Part shown: positions 4,587-12,412 of the stretch, one piece after another
How the letters are laid out: each line of letters opens with the position of its first letter
Numbering within the stretch: the stretch's first letter is position 1
Assembly: GCA_902797565.1 (NCBI GenBank)
Contig: CADBTO010000055.1
Coordinates: 1-12,412, forward strand
DNA from: an uncultured Lachnospiraceae bacterium
GTDB lineage: Bacteria > Bacillota > Clostridia > Lachnospirales > Lachnospiraceae
DNA: 12,412 nt
Reading direction: 5' to 3'
Program-made: the position numbers and the translations under genes
The notes under the pieces: generated by a model
The model's database searches: none
Told to the model about the DNA's origin: nothing
What the model saw: only the letters and a program-made list of their open reading frames with translations

Positions 4587-4619
4587 AGGAGGGGAAGATC
4601 CAAAAAATCTTCCCCTCCT
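4587..4619. terminator. Bidirectional intrinsic terminator between convergent blocks
   Basis: AGGAGGGGAAGAT (4587-4599) and ATCTTCCCCTCCT (4607-4619) form a perfect 13-bp stem with a 7-base loop (CCAAAAA). The plus strand continues TCTTTAAT and the minus strand GTTTTC, so short T-rich tails exist on both sides. The stem begins 4 bases after the mutS2 stop and ends 3 bases before the stop codon of the convergent GGDEF/EAL gene. Tails are short, so strength is uncertain, but position and perfect stem make a shared terminator likely. Confidence 0.85.
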
Positions 4620-4622
4620 TCT

Positions 4623-7600
4623 TTAATACCGCTCCTGCGGTCTGAAATCCAGCAGGAACACATAATACAAATCCCCATCATTCTGGGAATGGTACAATCT
4701 GCCATAGTATTCTATGACTTTGATGTGCCCGCCGGCCGTCACTGCACGGAAACGCACATATTCATAATCTTCAAACGCATCCTGCTGCCTTCGTATACTG
4801 GTATAGATCCGTTTCCAGTCCTCATCCATGACCAGGCCCCGGAAACTGTTCCCGGAGAACTTCCGGAACATCTCCATATTATCACACTCATACAACTCCA
4901 GCACATATCCGTTTGCATAGACCAGATCTCGCGTATCATTCGCACGATACACCAAAAAGCCGCCCGGCATCCCGTCTGAAAGCGATGCCGTATTGAACCC
5001 AAGATGCTCCCTGTTTGATTTTGCCAGCCCCGGCTCATAGAAGCGATATCCATTCCGCCCTGCCATCTTAATATTGTACAGCGCCATATCCGCACGCTGG
5101 TACAGGTCGTTATAGGCGTCCCCGTGCTCCGGAAAGAACGCGCAGCCAATCGACATGGTATACGTGATCGGCTTGCCCTGGTAATCCAGCGTTTTCTTTG
5201 TATGTGTGAAACGGGACAGGATCTCGTCAATCTTTTCTTTCGACTGGTTCCGCATCACCGCAAGAAACTCATCCCCGCCAATCCGTGCCACAAGGCCATA
5301 GGATTCCATCTCGCACCGCATTCTTTTTGAAGCATCTTTTAAGATTCGGTCTCCGCAGTCATGTCCAAAGCGGTCGTTGATCTGTTTGAAATAATCCAGA
5401 TCGAGGATGACGAGTGCTGCTGTACTGGTTTCCTCATTATGCAGCATATCCCAGATCTTGCTGCCAACCGTACTCCGGTTGTACAGCCCTGTCAGGGTAT
5501 CCCGCTCCGCAAGGCGGTGGATCGTTTCATTCGTGCGTTTGAAATCATCCACGTCAAAATTCAGTACGAAAATCCGAAGCCCTCCGTCTTCGCCGGAAGC
5601 GCGGACCTGGTAACAGGAATACTGGTATCTTGGTGCCTCATCCCGCCCGGTCTGGCGCAGATGGTGAATATTTTCTGAAACAATGCCCCGGCTGTACGCT
5701 TCCATAATCCGGCTGCGGTCATAGAACGTCACCATCTTCTCACGGTCTTCGGGCGTCACCGTGGAAAAGACCATGCTCCGGATCATATCATCATACGGCA
5801 GCTCGATATAGCCCGTTTCCCCGAAATCGCTGATCAGTCCGGATTGCCCCAGATGCATATAAATCGTCTTGTTATCGGAAAGCGAAGCCTCCAGATAAAA
5901 GGAATGCGTCAAAAACTGCTCAAAGGATCCATAGCCAAGCGTGTGGGTCAGTGCCCCGGTCGCAAGCAGCAGGAAGGTCGGATTGCCTGGCATGTCATAG
6001 TACACTGATCCACTCTGGCTGATTTCCGGCAATACCCGCAGCCGCTCCACATCCACATTCCGGGCACACAGCAGATACACCCGCTTCCCTTCCAGGATGG
6101 CCGGGATGATCATGTACATAATCCACTCAAAGGCACCCTCGATGTTGCGCGTCCGGAAGTATTCCGTCAAATGCCCGCCCACCTCACGGAGCCGCGTTTC
6201 GATTGTTTCAAAATTGAAAAACTCCAGGAAACGATCCCGGTCATCCCCGTGAACTACAGTCTGTGCCGTTGTTCGGTGCATTTCGCTCCAGCTGGTGACC
6301 ACAAAATTGTATTGGAACCGGCTTTCGTTGACATACACAACGTCATACCGGTCCTCAGACGGATCTACCACTACAACGCTATGGTACAGCGTATAAAGGA
6401 AGCGCAGCATGCGGTCCATCTGCTCTCCGCGTGACACCGGATTGTCGCGCCCCAGCCGCTCCGCCACGGCCACGATTGCACCGGTTTCCGTTTCCGCATG
6501 ATACGCGATGCAGCGCATCCGGATTCGATAGAATCCCGCACTCGTGACAAACGGGCACTCCCGTTCCCTGCCCTGCTCAACGCATTCCTTTGCCAGGCGG
6601 GCCGCCTGCCTCGAAAACGTCAGGTCTTCATTCCCGAATACATCTTCCAGACGATGCTCCTCATCCAGCCCCATCGGCACAAAAATCTCGTCAAACGGCT
6701 TGCTGGACATCAGGAACTTAAAGCCCTGCTCCCCATATTCCATGATCGCAAGGGGCAGCACATTCAGCAGTGCCGCCTCATTCCCCAGATACGACCACCC
6801 GGTCTTGAGCGGCGAGGCGGACAGCACGTTGACTTTGCCGATCGCGTCATAATAATCCCGCTCGTTCTGCTTCTCGCCCTTGCGGGAATTGACCTCGGAC
6901 TCCCAGATCCTGTCGATCGACATCGGCTGGCTGAGCAGATGCCCCTGGGTCTTCTCACAGCCAATCTGCCGCAAAAACTCCAGCACCCCTTCCGATTCCA
7001 CCTGGCTGACCTGGGTCTGGATCCCCAGCTCCTTTGCCATATTGATGAGGTTTTTCATGATGATCTTTGCCCGCAGCCCGTCTTCGCAGTCCGCCAGGAA
7101 GCTGCTCTCAATCTTCACGCTGTCAAAGGAAAACTCCTTCAAAAACTGCAGCGGAGAAAGCTTGCTGGCAAAATCATCCAGATGGATCTGGCACCCAAGC
7201 GCCTTCAAACGGGACAACTCTTCCAGCAAAGATTCCCGTTCGACAGCCAGATCATCCTCCTGGATCTCGAAACTCAGGCTTGAAAGCGGAACATCAAATT
7301 CTGATGCAATTTTCTTCACTTCCTCAGCCATATCGCAGAGCACAAAATCCATACGGGAAATATTGATGGATACCGGCAGGGAATCAAGAGAGCCTGATTC
7401 GATAAAATGCCGACTGTCCCTGCAGACCCGGCGGATCACAAAGAGATCCAGAAGATGGATCTGCCTTGCTTCGATCAGCACATCCACATATTCCTCCGGC
7501 ACAAGCATCCCAAATTCCGGATCCTTCCACCGGGACAATGCCTCCACGCCGCATGGACGGCCATTCAGCACATGATAGATCGGCTGGTAATACACTTCAA

Positions 7601-8168
7601 TATGATTTTCTTCCAGCGCCTCAGAGAAATGCTGCGTAATATGCTGCCTTAGTCGTATAGTGCGCTCCATACGCTCGTCATACATGGAGACCCCGGTCCT
7701 GGCCGCTTCATTGACTTTGCAGGCAATCTGCGCATGGCTGCAGATCTGCGCCACATCCGTTTCTCCCTCCAGCGGTTCATAAATTCCCGCTGTCAGCTGC
7801 AGCCCGGTATGCCGCCACTGCTCCTGCATGGCGGAAGAAAGGCGCTGGATCTTCTCCAGCAGCCCCTCGCGCCCCGCAAATAAAATGAAGTGGTCATTAT
7901 CAGACCGGCAGATATCCGAATCAGGAAAAGCCTCCCGCAATTTTTCAGACAGATCAATCAGGCACCTGCAGCCCAGATCAAACCCATTCCGGGTATGGAA
8001 GAGCTTGAACGCCTTAATATCAAAGTACACGCAGGACAGTTCCGACAACGCCAGACCACCGCTCCATACCTGCTGGTTGATCCGCCCGATCATCGCCTCA
8101 CGGGTCCACAGACCTGTCAGCCTGTCCCTCTCCTGCCAATCCGGCTGATTCTGATTCTCTTCAAACAT
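4623..8168 (-). CDS. Multi-domain c-di-GMP protein: GGDEF(deg)-EAL(deg)-PAS-like-GGDEF-PAS
   Basis: 1181 residues with no membrane segment or signal peptide, so cytoplasmic. Residues about 12-165 are a degenerate GGDEF domain: it starts with RDRLTGLWTR, but RSDNDHF (88-94) stands at the active-site position. Residues about 175-425 are an EAL domain keeping Glu209 (EAL), Asn269, Glu301/Glu304, Asp331-Asp332 and Lys352. The glutamate of the AEGVE motif is Ser388 (VSQVE), and loop 6 reads DDFASKLSPL instead of DDFGTGYSSL, so phosphodiesterase activity is doubtful. Residues about 455-875 are sensory-type sequence, probably two or three PAS-like domains. Residues about 885-1045 are a GGDEF domain with DLDYFKQIND and intact GGDEF (964-968), expected to make c-di-GMP; the upstream RxxD inhibitory site is absent. 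Residues about 1060-1178 look like a further PAS domain. The ATG overlaps the end of hypC by 8 bases and is preceded by AGAGGA 8 bases upstream, implying translational coupling to the hydrogenase operon. The signal sensed is unknown. Confidence 0.9.
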   Translation of the reverse strand: MFEENQNQPDWQERDRLTGLWTREAMIGRINQQVWSGGLALSELSCVYFDIKAFKLFHTRNGFDLGCRCLIDLSEKLREAFPDSDICRSDNDHFILFAGREGLLEKIQRLSSAMQEQWRHTGLQLTAGIYEPLEGETDVAQICSHAQIACKVNEAARTGVSMYDERMERTIRLRQHITQHFSEALEENHIEVYYQPIYHVLNGRPCGVEALSRWKDPEFGMLVPEEYVDVLIEARQIHLLDLFVIRRVCRDSRHFIESGSLDSLPVSINISRMDFVLCDMAEEVKKIASEFDVPLSSLSFEIQEDDLAVERESLLEELSRLKALGCQIHLDDFASKLSPLQFLKEFSFDSVKIESSFLADCEDGLRAKIIMKNLINMAKELGIQTQVSQVESEGVLEFLRQIGCEKTQGHLLSQPMSIDRIWESEVNSRKGEKQNERDYYDAIGKVNVLSASPLKTGWSYLGNEAALLNVLPLAIMEYGEQGFKFLMSSKPFDEIFVPMGLDEEHRLEDVFGNEDLTFSRQAARLAKECVEQGRERECPFVTSAGFYRIRMRCIAYHAETETGAIVAVAERLGRDNPVSRGEQMDRMLRFLYTLYHSVVVVDPSEDRYDVVYVNESRFQYNFVVTSWSEMHRTTAQTVVHGDDRDRFLEFFNFETIETRLREVGGHLTEYFRTRNIEGAFEWIMYMIIPAILEGKRVYLLCARNVDVERLRVLPEISQSGSVYYDMPGNPTFLLLATGALTHTLGYGSFEQFLTHSFYLEASLSDNKTIYMHLGQSGLISDFGETGYIELPYDDMIRSMVFSTVTPEDREKMVTFYDRSRIMEAYSRGIVSENIHHLRQTGRDEAPRYQYSCYQVRASGEDGGLRIFVLNFDVDDFKRTNETIHRLAERDTLTGLYNRSTVGSKIWDMLHNEETSTAALVILDLDYFKQINDRFGHDCGDRILKDASKRMRCEMESYGLVARIGGDEFLAVMRNQSKEKIDEILSRFTHTKKTLDYQGKPITYTMSIGCAFFPEHGDAYNDLYQRADMALYNIKMAGRNGYRFYEPGLAKSNREHLGFNTASLSDGMPGGFLVYRANDTRDLVYANGYVLELYECDNMEMFRKFSGNSFRGLVMDEDWKRIYTSIRRQQDAFEDYEYVRFRAVTAGGHIKVIEYYGRLYHSQNDGDLYYVFLLDFRPQERY

Positions 8169-8388
8169 ATCGCATTTCCTCTATGAGCGTGCGCATTTCT
8201 TCTGCTTCGCTCTGGGAGATTTTTTGAATGATGCAGCCTGCATGCACAAGCACATCATCTCCCGGACTGATCTCAAACAAACCGGAGAGGGCATTGACCC
8301 TGCTGCCCGCAAAATCCACGACTGCCCTGGCGCCTCCGGTTTCTGTCCGCCACACTTCCACGACCTTTCCAGGTGCCGCAACACACAT
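8161..8388 (-). CDS. hypC: Hydrogenase maturation chaperone HypC/HupF
   Basis: 75 residues beginning MCVAAPGKVVEV, the hallmark HypC N-terminus in which Cys2 is essential. HypC carries the Fe(CN)2CO unit with HypD and delivers it to the precursor of the [NiFe] large subunit, here presumably EchE. The body (AVVDFAGSRVNALSGLF, then GDDVLVHAGCIIQKI) matches the small beta-barrel of the family; length is typical. The frame extends upstream to 8424, but the start at 8388 is chosen because family members begin Met-Cys. It starts one base after the echF stop (TGA-G-ATG), with AGGGGG a few bases upstream, and its last 8 bases overlap the start of the c-di-GMP gene. No other hyp gene is in the window. 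Confidence 0.93.
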   Translation of the reverse strand: MCVAAPGKVVEVWRTETGGARAVVDFAGSRVNALSGLFEISPGDDVLVHAGCIIQKISQSEAEEMRTLIEEMRYV

Positions 8389-8389
8389 C

Positions 8390-8950
8390 TCAGACGCCCC
8401 CTGCGGGAGCAGCCTTCCCGGCATCCGGCGCCCCGGCCGCTGCTGCCCCGGCTCCTCCGGCTGCCTGTGCTGCTGCCCCGGCTCCTCCGGCTGCCTGCGC
8501 TGCCGCTTCTTCTGCCGCCTTCTTTTTCGCTGCTTCTTCCCTTGCCTTTTTCGCCGCCGCAGCCTTTGCCGCAGCTTCCTGCCGCTTCTGTTCCTCTGCC
8601 GCGAGCACCTCCGGGGACTTGGTATACGTCACGCTCCCCTTCTCGCCGCCCGGCGTCTGGTAGCCTTTCGCCATATGCAGGCATTTCTTCGGACACTTTT
8701 CCACGCAGAACCCGCAGGCAATGCAGTCAAACCGGTCGATCGACCATGTCCCTTTGATCCGGTCCACAGACAGCGTGCCGCAGGGACAGCAGCGCACGCA
8801 CATCCCGCAGCCGATGCAGTCGTCAATGTCAATCTCAATATGCCCTCTGCTGCCTTCCGGATATTCGAATGGCACCGCCGGATAACTGGTGGTCACAGGG
8901 GGCAAAAACAAATTTTTCAGCGCCTGCGGCGCATATTTCAGGATACCCAT
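8390..8950 (-). CDS. echF: Ech hydrogenase ferredoxin-like subunit EchF, with Ala-rich tail
   Basis: 186 residues. The first ~110 are the polyferredoxin subunit (NuoI-like) that passes electrons between soluble ferredoxin and EchC. Cluster 1 is Cys45, Cys48, Cys51, Cys55-Pro; cluster 2 is Cys76, Cys79, Cys82, Cys86-Pro. Extra cysteines lie at 54, 57 and 90. From about residue 114 a tail of some 70 residues follows that has no place in the family fold: first Ala/Lys/Glu/Gln-rich and probably helical (to ~150), then Gly/Ala-rich with a 10-residue repeat, ending PAGGV. The start at 8950 (MGILKYAP) is preceded by AGAGGT 10 bases upstream, and the gene begins 8 bases after the echE stop. A TTG at 8974 in the same frame is a less likely start. 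The gene stops one base before hypC. The subunit call is firm; the role of the tail is unknown. Confidence 0.93.
   Translation of the reverse strand: MGILKYAPQALKNLFLPPVTTSYPAVPFEYPEGSRGHIEIDIDDCIGCGMCVRCCPCGTLSVDRIKGTWSIDRFDCIACGFCVEKCPKKCLHMAKGYQTPGGEKGSVTYTKSPEVLAAEEQKRQEAAAKAAAAKKAREEAAKKKAAEEAAAQAAGGAGAAAQAAGGAGAAAAGAPDAGKAAPAGGV
8441..8500 (-). repeat. 30-bp tandem repeat within the echF tail
   Basis: Two adjacent 30-base units, 8441-8470 and 8471-8500, differ at a single position (8468 versus 8498). They encode AQAAGGAGAA twice (EchF residues 151-160 and 161-170). The unit is a multiple of three, so copy-number change would alter tail length without breaking the frame. Confidence 0.9.
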
Positions 8951-8958
8951 GATCCACC

Positions 8959-10041
8959 CTACCTCTCTGTGCAACTAATACAAGGATCTATGGTCACAAC
9001 CAGAAGCCCTACATCCGAAAGCTCCGTATTTTTCAACATTTCGCAAAGCCCCGGCAGATTCGCAAACGTAGGGGTGCGGATCCGGAGACGGTCGATAAAC
9101 GGCTTGCCTGAACCCTTGACATAATAATATGCCTCGCCCCGGGGCTGTTCCAGGCGCATGAAATATTCCCCATTCGGGTTGCCCTTGACCGGAACTGCCA
9201 GTTCCTGCTCCTTCGGCATCTTCGTAATTGCCTGGCGGATCAGGTCAACCGACTGATAGACTTCATACAGCCTGCACTTGCACCGTGCAAAACAATCCCC
9301 TTCCGTTGCCACCACCGGCTCCAGATCCAGCATACTATACGCTGCATAACCCAGCCGCCGCATATCACAGGAGATTCCGCTCGCCCTTGCCACCGGCCCG
9401 CAGCAGCCCAGGTCATGCGCCTGCTCTTTTGTCAGAATGCCGATGCCAACCAGCCGGCTTTTGACCGTGGAATCCTCCAGGAATACCTGCTCCAGATCCC
9501 GAAGCTCTGCTTCCACCTCCGTGACCGTGCCGTCGATAATCCGCAGCTGGTCCGCCGTGATGTCCTTGATGACCCCGCCCACTTTATTCACGGAAAAGAT
9601 CAGGCGCGCACCCGTGGTCATTTCAATCATATCCAGTACTTTTTCGCGGATTCGCCACGCCTGATAAAACAGGTTTTCATATCCAAAAGCATCCGCCAGG
9701 AGTCCCAGCCAGAGCAGGTGGCTGTGCATCCGCCCCAGTTCCGCCCAGATTGTCCGCAAAAACTTTGCCCGGATCGGGATATCCACATCAAAGATATGCT
9801 CCACAGCCTCACAATAGCCCATTCCATGCTGGAACGAGCAGATTCCGCAGGTACGCTCCGCGACATAGGTCATCTGGTTAAAGTCCCGCTTGTCCACGAG
9901 GCTTTCCAGCCCCCGGTGCACGAACCCAACAGAAGGGATTGCTTCAATCACCCGCTCATCCTCGATTACAAGATCCAGATGGATTGGCTCCGGCAAAACC
10001 GGATGCTGGGGGCCAAAGGGAATCACACTTCGCTTGCCCAT
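8959..10041 (-). CDS. echE: Ech hydrogenase large subunit EchE ([NiFe] site)
   Basis: 360 residues; the catalytic subunit that reduces protons to H2 or oxidises H2. The N-terminal ligand motif is RTCGICSFQH with Cys65 and Cys68 (His72 in the motif). The C-terminal motif is DPCISC with Cys354 and Cys357. All four nickel ligands are therefore present, which separates it from NuoD/complex I 49-kDa subunits, where they are lost. The protein ends three residues after Cys357 (TER, stop), so there is no C-terminal extension for a maturation endopeptidase to remove, as described for EchE and CooH. The start is well supported: GGAGGT (10051-10056) lies 9 bases upstream, and the ATG overlaps the echD stop by one base (TAATG). 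echF follows. Confidence 0.97.
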   Translation of the reverse strand: MGKRSVIPFGPQHPVLPEPIHLDLVIEDERVIEAIPSVGFVHRGLESLVDKRDFNQMTYVAERTCGICSFQHGMGYCEAVEHIFDVDIPIRAKFLRTIWAELGRMHSHLLWLGLLADAFGYENLFYQAWRIREKVLDMIEMTTGARLIFSVNKVGGVIKDITADQLRIIDGTVTEVEAELRDLEQVFLEDSTVKSRLVGIGILTKEQAHDLGCCGPVARASGISCDMRRLGYAAYSMLDLEPVVATEGDCFARCKCRLYEVYQSVDLIRQAITKMPKEQELAVPVKGNPNGEYFMRLEQPRGEAYYYVKGSGKPFIDRLRIRTPTFANLPGLCEMLKNTELSDVGLLVVTIDPCISCTER

Positions 10042-10421
10042 TACGCCTTCACCTCCGTTTCCTGTTTCGGCCCAAGCGGTGCCGTCTGTTTGATTCGATA
10101 AAGCTTGTTTTCATAATCCAGGCTGATCATTTCGATTTTCACCCCAAAGATCTCCTTCATTTCATTCTCATAAAAGACCGCCTGGGGAATCAGTTCTGTA
10201 ATACTAGGAACCTGGGTCTGTGGATCAATGACCACCCGCAGGTTGATCAGTTCATATGCCGCATCATCAGAAAACGAATAGCTGAGCTCGAACTTTTCGT
10301 TGATATACGCCGCACAGGCCTGGGACAGCCGCATCCCCTGCTTCTTCAGCACCAGCACTTCATTCAGGAGGTTTTCTACAGGGATCTCCCGGATCTCATT
10401 TTTTAATCCAAGATTTGTCAT
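10041..10421 (-). CDS. echD: Ech hydrogenase subunit EchD (NuoC-like)
   Basis: 126 residues; the small soluble subunit related to the 30-kDa/NuoC subunit of complex I. It carries no cofactor and helps hold the large and small subunits together. The conserved family segment is visible as PQAVFYENEMKEIFGV near residues 80-95. The N-terminal half is weakly conserved, as is usual. It starts 3 bases after the echC stop, with AAGGG 11 bases upstream, and its TAA overlaps the echE ATG. Identification rests on the motif and on its place between echC and echE. Confidence 0.92.
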   Translation of the reverse strand: MTNLGLKNEIREIPVENLLNEVLVLKKQGMRLSQACAAYINEKFELSYSFSDDAAYELINLRVVIDPQTQVPSITELIPQAVFYENEMKEIFGVKIEMISLDYENKLYRIKQTAPLGPKQETEVKA

Positions 10422-10424
10422 TTT

Positions 10425-10886
10425 TTATTTTTCCCTTCCTTCCTTATTCTGCTTGACCAGCGCATCGTGCTCATCCGAACGCTGCTGGAACAGTTCCACT
10501 GCCTGCACCACGCCGTCGATAATTGCCTGGGGGCGTGCTGCGCATCCCGGCACATAAATATCCACCGGAATCGTTGTATCCGCCCCGCCCAAAATATTAT
10601 AACAGTCCTTAAAAATTCCACCCGTACACGCACAGACGCCAACGGCAACAACTACCTTTGGCCTGGGCATCTGGTCATACAGCTGTTTTACCGTTGCCTG
10701 GTTCTGGGCATTGATGCCGCCCGTAATCAGGAAAATGTCTGCCTGCATTGGGTCGCCCGTATTCATCACCCCGAAGCGTTCCGCGTCATAGACCGGTGTC
10801 AGGGCAGCCAGCACCTCGATATCACAGCCATTGCAGCTGGATCCGTCATAATGCAGAAGCCAGGGCGAACGTTTTATATTTGCCAT
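10425..10886 (-). CDS. echC: Ech hydrogenase small subunit EchC (NuoB-like)
   Basis: 153 residues; the electron-transfer subunit next to the [NiFe] centre. It holds a single proximal [4Fe-4S] cluster, with likely ligands Cys18 and Cys21 (SSCNGCDIE), Cys85 (GVCACTGG) and Cys115 (PGCAARP). It lacks the extra cluster domains and the twin-arginine signal of uptake-hydrogenase small subunits, as expected for group 4 enzymes facing the cytoplasm. A GAGAGG site lies 5 bases before the ATG. The gene begins 13 bases after the echB stop. Confidence 0.96.
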   Translation of the reverse strand: MANIKRSPWLLHYDGSSCNGCDIEVLAALTPVYDAERFGVMNTGDPMQADIFLITGGINAQNQATVKQLYDQMPRPKVVVAVGVCACTGGIFKDCYNILGGADTTIPVDIYVPGCAARPQAIIDGVVQAVELFQQRSDEHDALVKQNKEGREK

Positions 10887-10899
10887 GATTGCCTCTCTC

Positions 10900-11769
10900 C
10901 TATCTAACCAGCATCAATACCAAAAGGTTCACCCCCGCACAGAGGATGGTCACGCCCCAGCTGGTCTTGATCATCATGTCCGTCTTCACACGCGCGCTGG
11001 AATTGTCGATCAGGATTTCCAGGAAGTAAACCACCAGGATTACCAGAATCGCTGCCACCGTGCTGATCGGGCTGGAATTTTTGATGAACAGCCCAATGAC
11101 TCCCATCAAAAAAACATTTTCATACCACTCTGTGACCTGGAACAAGGCCAGGTTTTTTGACCCCATCTCCGTTGTCAGGCCCTTGACGATCTCCTGGTGC
11201 ATATGGTGAGAAGTACTCGTATCAAATGGAGACTTCCGCATCTTGATCGTCAGGATATAGACGAACGCAACGAAGAACCCCGGCAGGTACATAATCGCGC
11301 TGTACCTGGAACTTGCAATTTCCGATACGCTGAAGGTCCCTTCCACAAGATAGAAACCAACGCAGGCAAGCAGTACTGCCGGCTCATACGATACCATCTG
11401 CAGCAGTTCCCGGTTCGCCCCAACTGTGGCATACGGGGAACTTGTGACAATCGCGGCGAAATACAGGAAAGTTGCCCCGGTACTCATCACGAAGAAGCAC
11501 ATCAGGATATCACTGCCGCCATAATACATGGCACCGGTCAGGATGATCATCACCAGATAGGTCATCAACAGGAAACTCTGCGCCGTAGAGACGGCGATCG
11601 TCTGTTTTTTGAATAATTTAATCACGTCATAAAAAGGCTGCAAAAGCGGCGGTCCAACCCTCCGCTGCATCCGGGCGGATAATTTCCGGTCAATCCCTTC
11701 CAGCAATCCCCCAACCAGCGGTGCCAGAAGGATATATGCCAGGACCCTGGCAAAAACCTGTACTGTCAT
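10900..11769 (-). CDS. echB: Ech hydrogenase membrane subunit EchB (NuoH-like)
   Basis: 289 residues with about eight hydrophobic segments; an integral membrane protein that anchors the soluble arm and takes part in ion translocation. Family marks are the cytoplasmic loop after the first helix (EGIDRKLSARMQRRVGPP, about residues 24-41) and the SPFDTSTSHHMHQEIVKG segment, which is the form seen in group 4 hydrogenases rather than in respiratory NuoH. The start is supported by GGAGGT at 11778-11783, 8 bases upstream. Its ATG overlaps the echA stop in ATGA, indicating coupled translation. Confidence 0.96.
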   Translation of the reverse strand: MTVQVFARVLAYILLAPLVGGLLEGIDRKLSARMQRRVGPPLLQPFYDVIKLFKKQTIAVSTAQSFLLMTYLVMIILTGAMYYGGSDILMCFFVMSTGATFLYFAAIVTSSPYATVGANRELLQMVSYEPAVLLACVGFYLVEGTFSVSEIASSRYSAIMYLPGFFVAFVYILTIKMRKSPFDTSTSHHMHQEIVKGLTTEMGSKNLALFQVTEWYENVFLMGVIGLFIKNSSPISTVAAILVILVVYFLEILIDNSSARVKTDMMIKTSWGVTILCAGVNLLVLMLVR

Positions 11770-12412
11770 ACGATTCCACCTCCTATGATCATGATCAGCA
11801 TCACCACAAGCGTTGCCGTGGCAAAAATCTGGCTGGGAATCATCAGCTTCCGCTGCCCAAAGCGCTCATGGAAATAATAATTCGAAATCCAAAGCCGCTT
11901 CGGATCCCCGAAGGAGTCCGTGAACCGCTTGTTGTCCCCTTCGTTGACGCCGTTCATATAAGACAGCTTGACATTCGTCCGGATATTCCGGCTTCCGAGA
12001 TACGAAAGGAATGGAACCGCAAAGACCACCAGGATGATCACAACCAGCATGATCATGATATTCATCGGCAGCACGTCTGAGTATGAACCAAACATCTCGT
12101 CCACCAGGGGATTGACATACACCTTGGAGAGCAGCGGGAAAAGCGCACAAAGCAGGATCATCAGCACCGCATGGATCGTCAGTGAAACCACTTCGTTATT
12201 CTTCGTGATGTCCCGGAACTTCTTCTCGCCCAAATGGCTCATGCTGATGATCTTGCCCATCCACTTCGTCCAGTATAATGATGTCGTAGCACTGCCGAAC
12301 GCGATGAAGAACACCATCAGGACATTCCCCTCATCCACTGATGCCTTGAACGCGGACCACTTACTGATCAGCATCCCGAACGGTGCCAGGAACATCCCGG
12401 CAATCCCGATGA
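11766..12412 (-). CDS. echA: Ech hydrogenase membrane subunit EchA (NuoL/M-like), C-terminal part
   Basis: About 215 residues of the C-terminal part; the frame stays open to the right edge, so the gene starts outside the window. Several long hydrophobic segments, including one with APFGMLISKW, match the late helices of the NuoL/NuoM/Mrp antiporter-like family, the ion-pumping subunit. The hydrophilic stretch with SYMNGVNEGDNKRFTDSFGD near the end, followed by a last hydrophobic helix, fits EchA-type proteins. The stop overlaps the echB start in ATGA. Membership of Ech rather than another group 4 enzyme is inferred mainly from the A-F gene order that follows. Confidence 0.92.
   Translation of the reverse strand, partial: IGIAGMFLAPFGMLISKWSAFKASVDEGNVLMVFFIAFGSATTSLYWTKWMGKIISMSHLGEKKFRDITKNNEVVSLTIHAVLMILLCALFPLLSKVYVNPLVDEMFGSYSDVLPMNIMIMLVVIILVVFAVPFLSYLGSRNIRTNVKLSYMNGVNEGDNKRFTDSFGDPKRLWISNYYFHERFGQRKLMIPSQIFATATLVVMLIMIIGGGIV

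Follow-up and report, generated by a model that had tools for sequence, protein, structure and literature searches.

Within a window of 12,412 nucleotides, the whole stretch analysed here, open reading frames and profile matches place the genes of an Ech hydrogenase (echA in part, then echB to echF), hypC and a gene for a 1181-residue GGDEF/EAL protein in one direction on the minus strand (Table 1). The enzyme is identified as Ech by the intact echB to echF, by an echA cut by the contig end, and by both CxxC nickel-ligand motifs of the large subunit (CGIC and the C-terminal DPCISC), which are invariant among eight aligned relatives to which EchE is 63–76% identical. The best matches of this subunit were to NuoD/complex-I-type models and Ech relatives, while the echA part returned no curated family above its cut-off in a Pfam/NCBIfam-type profile search. 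HypC, which clears its Pfam cut-off, falls under that of NCBIfam (41.1 vs 48), and shares 46% identity with the ech-linked HypC from a genus relative (G003) and 38% with a HypC on contig C28 of its own assembly. The mutS2 and GH13 genes of the window lie on the strand opposite to the GGDEF/EAL gene, with GH13 two genes away from it, and an Rfam search of the window gave 0 matches.

Table 1 Features of the ech-hypC-GGDEF/EAL locus, with positions in the window.
Feature	Position	Strand	Evidence or remark
echA, 3' part	11766..12395	-	ORF leaves contig end; named from its place ahead of echB, as in relatives
echB, NADHdh/NuoH-like membrane subunit	10900..11769	-	PF00146, 158.8 bits
echC, small subunit, NuoB-like	10425..10886	-	PF01058, 104.9 bits
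echD, NuoC-like	10041..10421	-	PF00329, 37.3 bits
echE, [NiFe] large subunit	8959..10041	-	PF00346, 199.9 bits; PF00374, 47 bits
echF, two 4Fe-4S motifs and Ala/Gly-rich tail	8390..8974	-	Fer4_7, 37.9 bits; start codon uncertain
hypC, 75 aa	8161..8388	-	PF01455 (HupF_HypC), 63.6 bits; Pfam cut-off 28.5
AGAGGA, ribosome-binding-like, within hypC	8177..8182	-	Ends 8 nt ahead of ATG
8 nt shared by the end of hypC and the start of GGDEF/EAL	8161..8168	-	ATGTTTGA
GGDEF(degenerate)-EAL(without catalytic Glu)-middle-GGDEF(intact)-PAS-like protein, 1181 aa	4623..8168	-	ORF, Pfam, alignment
Terminator-like hairpin between convergent GGDEF/EAL gene and mutS2	4587..4619		

The original prediction made the GGDEF/EAL gene the last cistron of an ech-hypC transcription unit, and the anatomy of the junction supports this. 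The claimed overlap with the end of hypC, the AGAGGA site ahead of it, the spacing of a single nucleotide between echF and hypC, and the terminator-like hairpin beyond the gene (a 15-bp stem, z = −3.8 for a 66-nt stretch) were all recovered. The range given with the original prediction, 4623 to 8388, has as its upper limit the start of hypC and not that of the GGDEF/EAL gene. The overlap is independent of start choice, since a stop codon lies five codons upstream of the ATG in the same frame and the only other start among the first 40 codons, at codon 26, falls inside the first GGDEF domain. The promoter scan found no sigma-70-like site on the minus strand from 12412 to 8168; its three minus-strand sites all lie inside the GGDEF/EAL gene, and the two strands together carry 9 sites, compared with 6.4 on average after shuffling. 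Taken together, the overlap, the lack of another usable start, the spacing, and the hairpin suggest that the gene is co-transcribed with ech-hypC, and the hairpin may serve both convergent genes, GGDEF/EAL and mutS2. Joint expression under selection would also be expected to look like this, with a start that overlaps and has a ribosome site to itself.

Within the protein, the second GGDEF domain (residues 888–1039) retains an intact GGDEF motif, as do 24 of 24 aligned family members, while the first reads SDNDHF in place of GG(D/E)EF. At what we take to be the position of the RxxD inhibitory site in the second domain, a site not common to all diguanylate cyclases, the protein has ESYG, and RxxD occurs in 0 of the 24 aligned members. 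The EAL fold is of full length and keeps E209, N269, E301, D331, D332, K352 and Q408, to which we ascribe the presumed catalytic and metal-binding roles, with Ser388 replacing the Glu of EGVE, leaving the phosphodiesterase residue set incomplete. One catalytic EAL residue is lost in every aligned member (24/24), the EGVE Glu in 13 and, in the other 11, the one at 332, where Asn stands. Because the second GGDEF motif is intact and an EAL catalytic residue is lost, the protein is probably a diguanylate cyclase; its EAL domain, lacking the catalytic glutamate, is predicted to bind c-di-GMP, probably, rather than cleave it. Residues 440–875 (about 435) have no Pfam match. Of the 24 relatives, 19 match PAS_3, which in the two whose coordinates were examined falls in the C-terminal region; the window protein itself does not match it, even with E allowed up to 0.1. 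A diguanylate cyclase, putatively PAS-regulated, is the most likely description of the protein. A family in which one catalytic EAL residue has been lost in two different ways is the more reusable result of this analysis.

In the standard Ech operon of relatives, hypC is followed by hypD, a place that the GGDEF/EAL gene occupies here, which the original prediction did not note. A survey of 80 named Ech loci identified hypC in 63 and did not recognise it in the other 17, and the next recognised gene after it was hypD in 57, hypE in one, hypA in one, none in four, and a c-di-GMP gene in none; this survey sees only genes matching reference proteins and skips unmatched ORFs, and its loci are not independent (L121, L137, L157, and L177 resemble G008, G007, G022, and G012, and L145 and L146 are alike). 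Among genus and family relatives, hypD follows hypC in all 10 informative loci: nine of the ten that were fetched, the remaining one (G022) stopping short of hypC, and a further locus (G009) that reads hypC-hypD-hypE. In one of them (G016) a single 132-aa ORF sits between hypC and hypD. The GGDEF/EAL gene accordingly stands where relatives carry hypD and mostly also hypE, and the original statement that such a gene is foreign to standard Ech operons agrees with its occurrence in 0/63 named loci with hypC recognised and 0/9 informative fetched relatives, and with its absence from G009. The proposed link of c-di-GMP to H2 or ferredoxin was to fall if no close relative shared the arrangement, and it was absent in every relative that could be read. 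Searches of relatives with EchE, HypD, and the GGDEF/EAL protein did not find it either; two of the protein searches scored all first-look candidates, three scored at most 2, 14, and 9 per genome and can miss members, and one covered the genomes of 50 of the 80 named loci. The window's own assembly has one match each for HypD and HypE, both on contig C28, which also encodes HypF, and two for HypC. As this genome is an 81%-complete draft in 428 contigs, the missing hypD and hypE at the locus may reflect a gap.

The protein itself belongs to a family whose members lie beside other genes wherever both sides can be read. Among the matches listed for 12 other genomes of the genus there was no close homologue, the best-scoring match reaching 30% over residues 47–704 and short single-domain matches up to 43%. 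Family relatives numbered at least 63, with 40–50% identity over 68–100% of the length, among the 120 of 363 matches listed from a search that scored the 8000 candidates sharing most words. In Butyrivibrio (12 loci), members have a common kinase-like gene downstream in 12/12 and a common aldolase-like gene upstream in 11/12, one contig being cut. The member in G338 has different neighbours on both sides and overlaps an unrelated 66-aa ORF by 4 nt, the start codon being uncertain; tight packing is therefore not a peculiarity of the hypC junction. Members in G339 and G204 lie at contig starts with only the downstream side readable; the decisive upstream side is thus unreadable in two of the protein's three closest relatives. 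Among 20 c-di-GMP stretches in the window's own genome, a GGDEF gene (L229) lies 2 nt after a same-strand gene that we take to be MurA-like, and an EAL gene (L246) 2 nt ahead of a same-strand gene; since gene picking took antisense ORFs elsewhere, the window included, no rate is given. No literature on c-di-GMP gene order in Butyrivibrio was found.

Around the 80 named clusters, c-di-GMP genes within 5 kb numbered four upstream (in 286,557 bases), five downstream (in 234,919 bases), and one inside a cluster, with no clear enrichment after Ech. In the genus, G003 has an unrelated c-di-GMP gene, convergent, about 60 nt after hypE, and G007 and G009 have an unrelated one on the same strand one gene after hypE; none lies near the hyp end in the stretches read from G002, G010, and G012. 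This frequency is above that of the family-wide survey, a comparison made post hoc, and the genes differ in family, strand, and position.

The original prediction went on to tie c-di-GMP to H2 or ferredoxin status, in a circuit where the enzyme would be made with Ech and the messenger would follow hydrogenase expression or be tuned by PAS-sensed redox or energy state. We consider such a circuit unlikely. The overlap with its ribosome site, the intact second GGDEF, the PAS_3 matches of the relatives, the proximity of c-di-GMP and hyp genes in G003, G007, and G009, and a putative diguanylate cyclase-linked [NiFe] group in the HydDB table (PMC5037454) are all consistent with it; against it, none of the 63 named loci with hypC shares the arrangement, the protein's relatives adjoin other genes wherever context is readable, close homologues are absent from the genus genomes among the matches listed, and c-di-GMP genes show no clear downstream-over-upstream excess. 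The proposed membership in the ech-hypC unit is supported by the anatomy of the junction, while the proposed c-di-GMP/H2 circuit does not gain support, and there is no sign of a conserved function joining the gene to the hydrogenase, although coupling may be real yet unconserved. Also distinctly unlikely is a cyclase captured into the Ech operon under translational coupling, its EAL domain binding c-di-GMP with catalysis lost, whose product would rise with ferredoxin-dependent H2 and whose repeated captures in the genus (G000, G003, and G007/G009) would reflect selection.

Assembly error, joining unrelated DNA at hypC, fits a draft of 428 contigs that lacks the expected hypD-hypE at this locus, an arrangement found once, and a protein cluster (P0001) of one sequence on one contig. 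Yet both frames run intact through the 8 nt that they share and the ribosome site fits, a combination that would be rare for a random join, GC is even over the contig (0.505–0.586 in 1-kb windows), and GC3 is 0.654 for both the GGDEF/EAL gene and echE in a run spanning 0.539 (hypC) to 0.724 (echA part), so that a chimera seems very unlikely. Least probable of the explanations weighed here is a role in carbon metabolism, in which the GH13 side would hold the relevant neighbours and ech would be incidental. Butyrivibrio members sit between genes we take for aldolase-like and ROK-kinase-like, a presumed MalQ-like gene follows the G339 member, and the window has a GH13 gene at a distance of two genes; this gene and mutS2 run on the opposite strand, however, and no sugar gene directly adjoins the G338 member.

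Because no relative examined shares the arrangement, a rearrangement in one lineage is more likely than a hydrogen-sensing circuit. We favour, with fair confidence, a lineage-specific gene-order change that put the c-di-GMP gene behind hypC as a passenger and last cistron of the ech-hypC unit, its link to the hydrogenase being positional. Under this lineage-specific change, the gene would have been set directly 3' of hypC, at the place of hypD (mostly hypD-hypE), and would probably be read through from an ech promoter lying outside the contig, with its translation partly coupled to that of hypC and the transcript ended by the hairpin; Ech maturation would then use HypD, HypE, and HypF from contig C28. 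Were it functional, the coupling would make surface or motility decisions in an Ech-bearing anaerobe depend on H2 or ferredoxin status, the nearest published idea we met being the putative group in HydDB. Two tightly overlapping genes in a single draft genome should nonetheless not be taken as evidence of a conserved circuit.

Among known systems, the protein resembles bifunctional GGDEF/EAL proteins such as MucR, what we take to be MorA, and DosP with its presumed PAS domains, in joining GGDEF and EAL in one chain, with an intact second GGDEF motif and a full-length EAL fold. It differs from them in its two GGDEF domains flanking EAL and a middle of about 435 residues, and in the catalytic EAL residue lost throughout its family. 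The hydrogenase matches the Ech-type ferredoxin-coupled [NiFe] enzymes of HydDB group 4e in subunit order and large-subunit motifs, an assignment from genes and motifs, and the Ech loci of genus relatives in having hypC adjoin echF; it differs in carrying a c-di-GMP gene in the stead of hypD and hypE. No literature on a sensory hydrogenase with GGDEF was found, and the excerpts at hand on hydrogenase/GGDEF operons in Lachnospiraceae held nothing on an ech-hypC-GGDEF/EAL linkage. A HydDB table lists [NiFe] group 2c as diguanylate cyclase-linked (putative) and suggests H2 sensing through c-di-GMP (PMC5037454), a likeness in that a hydrogenase is linked to a diguanylate cyclase. Group 2c is, however, a group 2 uptake or sensory enzyme, to which the large subunit of the window does not correspond by profile matches or alignment with Ech relatives, whereas the window enzyme is of the membrane Ech type; and in group 2c the linkage names a group, while that of the window has been seen once.

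Along the minus strand, read from the right edge of the window, the 3' part of echA is followed by echB, echC, echD, echE, echF, hypC, and the 1181-residue GGDEF/EAL gene, with adjacent genes spaced by −16 to +13 nt (the −16 value hinges on the start of echF, which is uncertain); a GH13 gene and mutS2 lie on the plus strand. The end of hypC and the start of the GGDEF/EAL gene share the sequence ATGTTTGA, an AGAGGA motif lies 8 nt ahead of the ATG, and the start codon is fixed, since the frame has a stop 5 codons upstream and no other possible start before codon 26. Ahead of this gene, the minus strand showed no sigma-70-like site in a promoter scan. Downstream, a 66-nt stretch contains a hairpin (fold −30 kcal/mol, z −3.8) that may serve both the GGDEF/EAL gene and mutS2, which ends on its other side. 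These observations confirm the layout described in the original prediction, with the GGDEF/EAL gene overlapping hypC behind the ech genes. The EchF tail of the two closest genus relatives is Ala/Lys, unlike that encoded in the window.

Coordinates of the GGDEF/EAL gene, echF, and related loci in compared genomes
Feature	Genome or contig	Location	Strand
GGDEF/EAL gene	window	4623-8168	minus
Long Ala/Gly-rich C-terminal tail of echF, internal repeat AQAAGGAGAA x2	window	8390-8560	minus
c-di-GMP gene close behind ech-hyp cluster	G003	L023:1-732	
c-di-GMP gene close behind ech-hyp cluster	G007	L028:4522-8337	
c-di-GMP gene close behind ech-hyp cluster	G009	L095:3971-7789	
hypF-hypC-hypD-hypE set adjoining nitrogenase-like genes	own genome, contig C28	L097:595-7204	
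Same type of set	compared genomes	L100, L101, L099, L093, L094, L096	

Gene order after hypC was different in related genomes of the genus and family, where the ech cluster is followed by hypC and hypD, mostly also hypE, with hypF sometimes ahead of hypC. An EchE search of 61 genomes matched 14, comprising 11 close (at least 63%, including the window's own genome and one fragmentary match) and 3 distant (24–30%) genomes. In 10 loci from the 10 other close genomes, hypD follows hypC in 9, once with a 132-aa ORF between them, and one locus stops short of hypC; a further genus member (G009) reads echF-hypC-hypD-hypE at a contig end. Across the best 80 named Ech loci, hypC was recognised in 63 and unrecognised in 17, and the first gene recognised behind it on the same strand was hypD in 57, hypE in 1, hypA in 1, and none in 4. 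A c-di-GMP gene came next in 0 of these 63, which bears out the earlier statement that no standard Ech operon includes such a gene, and also means that the linkage is absent from the related operons compared. Judged by these gene orders, the GGDEF/EAL gene occupies the place of hypD. Within the window's own draft genome (2.43 Mb, 428 contigs, 81% complete; the window is one entire contig), the one HypD match and one HypE match both fall on another contig, C28, within a hypF-hypC-hypD-hypE set, and the two HypC matches are on C28 and in the window. An ech-type hypD-hypE pair is absent from this assembly, and is either lost or in a gap.

Relatives of the GGDEF/EAL protein lie in other settings wherever their surroundings are readable. 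Searching 5.8 billion proteins, with scoring of 8000 candidates, yielded 363 relatives. Among the best 120 of these, P0002 to P0064 share 40–50% identity with the window protein over 68–100% of its length, beyond which the score falls from 706 to 378 bits; where the source gives an organism, these are Butyrivibrio, Lachnospiraceae, and Selenomonadaceae. The 12 other genus genomes gave a best-scoring match of 30% (residues 47–704) and short single-domain matches of at most 43% among the matches listed, and a search of 298 other family genomes (E up to 1e-100, scoring limited to 2 candidates per genome) matched two, G204 (48%) and G303 (30%). A relative at 48–51% is present in 3 of the 6 genomes of G204's genus, with differing neighbouring genes; because the G339 and G204 copies lie at a contig start, the upstream side is readable in G338 alone of the three, and is not ech or hyp. 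The close relative in G339 (L195/L198) has an in-frame stop. One of 50 Ech genomes encodes a relative, at 29% (scoring limited to 14 candidates per genome). Of 79 genomes belonging to the Butyrivibrio sp. MC2013 genus, 13 encode one (scoring limited to 9 candidates per genome), 12 at 42–45% and one at 32%. Those 12 (L214–L224, L208) all lie ahead of what we take to be a ROK-kinase-like gene, and 11 lie behind a presumably aldolase-like gene, the upstream side of the twelfth being cut by the contig end; this fixed place represents a conserved tie to sugar genes in Butyrivibrio. At 16 relatives' loci, the four flanking genes on each side, within contig reach, included none recognised as ech or hyp.

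The window protein begins with a degenerate GGDEF domain (SDNDHF), followed by an EAL domain, a middle region of ~435 residues with no Pfam match, an intact GGDEF domain, and a C-terminal region. PAS_3 was matched in 19 of 24 family members, in the C-terminal region in the two with coordinates examined, and had no match in the window protein. All 24 aligned members have one altered EAL catalytic residue, either the EGVE glutamate (located from an alignment), replaced by Ser, Gly, or Asp in 13, or the second aspartate of DDFG, replaced by Asn in the remaining 11; we take both to be catalytic in EAL domains. Losses at EAL residues 332 and 388 are mutually exclusive, each member lacking exactly one. 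The EAL domain is predicted not to cleave c-di-GMP, and the second GGDEF domain is predicted to make it.

Within 5 kb of the best 80 named ech-hyp clusters, we counted 4 c-di-GMP genes upstream (in 286,557 bases read) and 5 downstream (in 234,919 bases); one more lies within a cluster. These counts show no clear excess given the 28 GGDEF matches in the 2.43-Mb own genome. Counter-evidence, which we treat as a lead, comes from the window's genus, where a c-di-GMP gene lies convergent ~60 nt after hypE in G003 and one gene after hypE in G007 and G009; these proteins differ from the window's, as do the orientations, and G002, G010, and G012 have no c-di-GMP gene near the hyp end within the stretches read.

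Most likely, the GGDEF/EAL gene is transcribed together with ech, and its link to Ech arose by a recent rearrangement that is not conserved. Translation would depend partly on coupling to hypC, and protein level would then follow Ech expression. The original prediction went further, proposing that c-di-GMP may be linked to H2 or ferredoxin status; the interpretation is only partly supported, in that the placement in the ech-hypC run favours membership of that transcription unit, whereas the survey of named loci and the neighbourhood counts speak against a conserved or enriched link, and a functional circuit tying the gene to Ech seems unlikely. Less probable still is a chimeric assembly at the hypC-GGDEF/EAL junction, against which stand the even GC across the contig and the two frames, both intact through the overlap.

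The second hyp set, on C28, adjoins nitrogenase-like genes, as do sets in other genomes. PF00148 was confirmed beside the hyp set in C28, G001, and G009, and PF00142 (NifH-like) was matched in G001; look-alike genes in G005, G006, G007, and G011 were identified by eye only. HypD is present in 13/13 genus genomes and the [NiFe] large subunit (PF00374) in 6/13; G001, G004, G005, G006, and G011 (four of the five at least 91% complete) matched HypD and neither EchE nor PF00374. The occurrence of Hyp proteins beside a nitrogenase-like enzyme, in genomes where no [NiFe] hydrogenase was found, suggests that Hyp chemistry has another use there. The association of hyp with nitrogenase-like genes is already published for Coprococcus catus and other Firmicutes (PMC3464626). 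In G007, G009, and G011 (L093, L094, L096), the hypE gene of the nitrogenase-like hyp cluster has mutS2 at most ~2 kb downstream; the window mutS2, by contrast, converges on the ech-hypC-GGDEF unit.

Among the papers listed by a literature search, none concerned a c-di-GMP gene in an Ech operon, an absence that is not proof. HydDB (PMC5037454) includes a [NiFe] group 2c, putatively linked to diguanylate cyclase, whose members may be H2 sensors with c-di-GMP as their output; Ech is its group 4e. Because its large subunit is Ech-type, unlike group 2c, the window case is not placed in that group; it is at most similar in idea.
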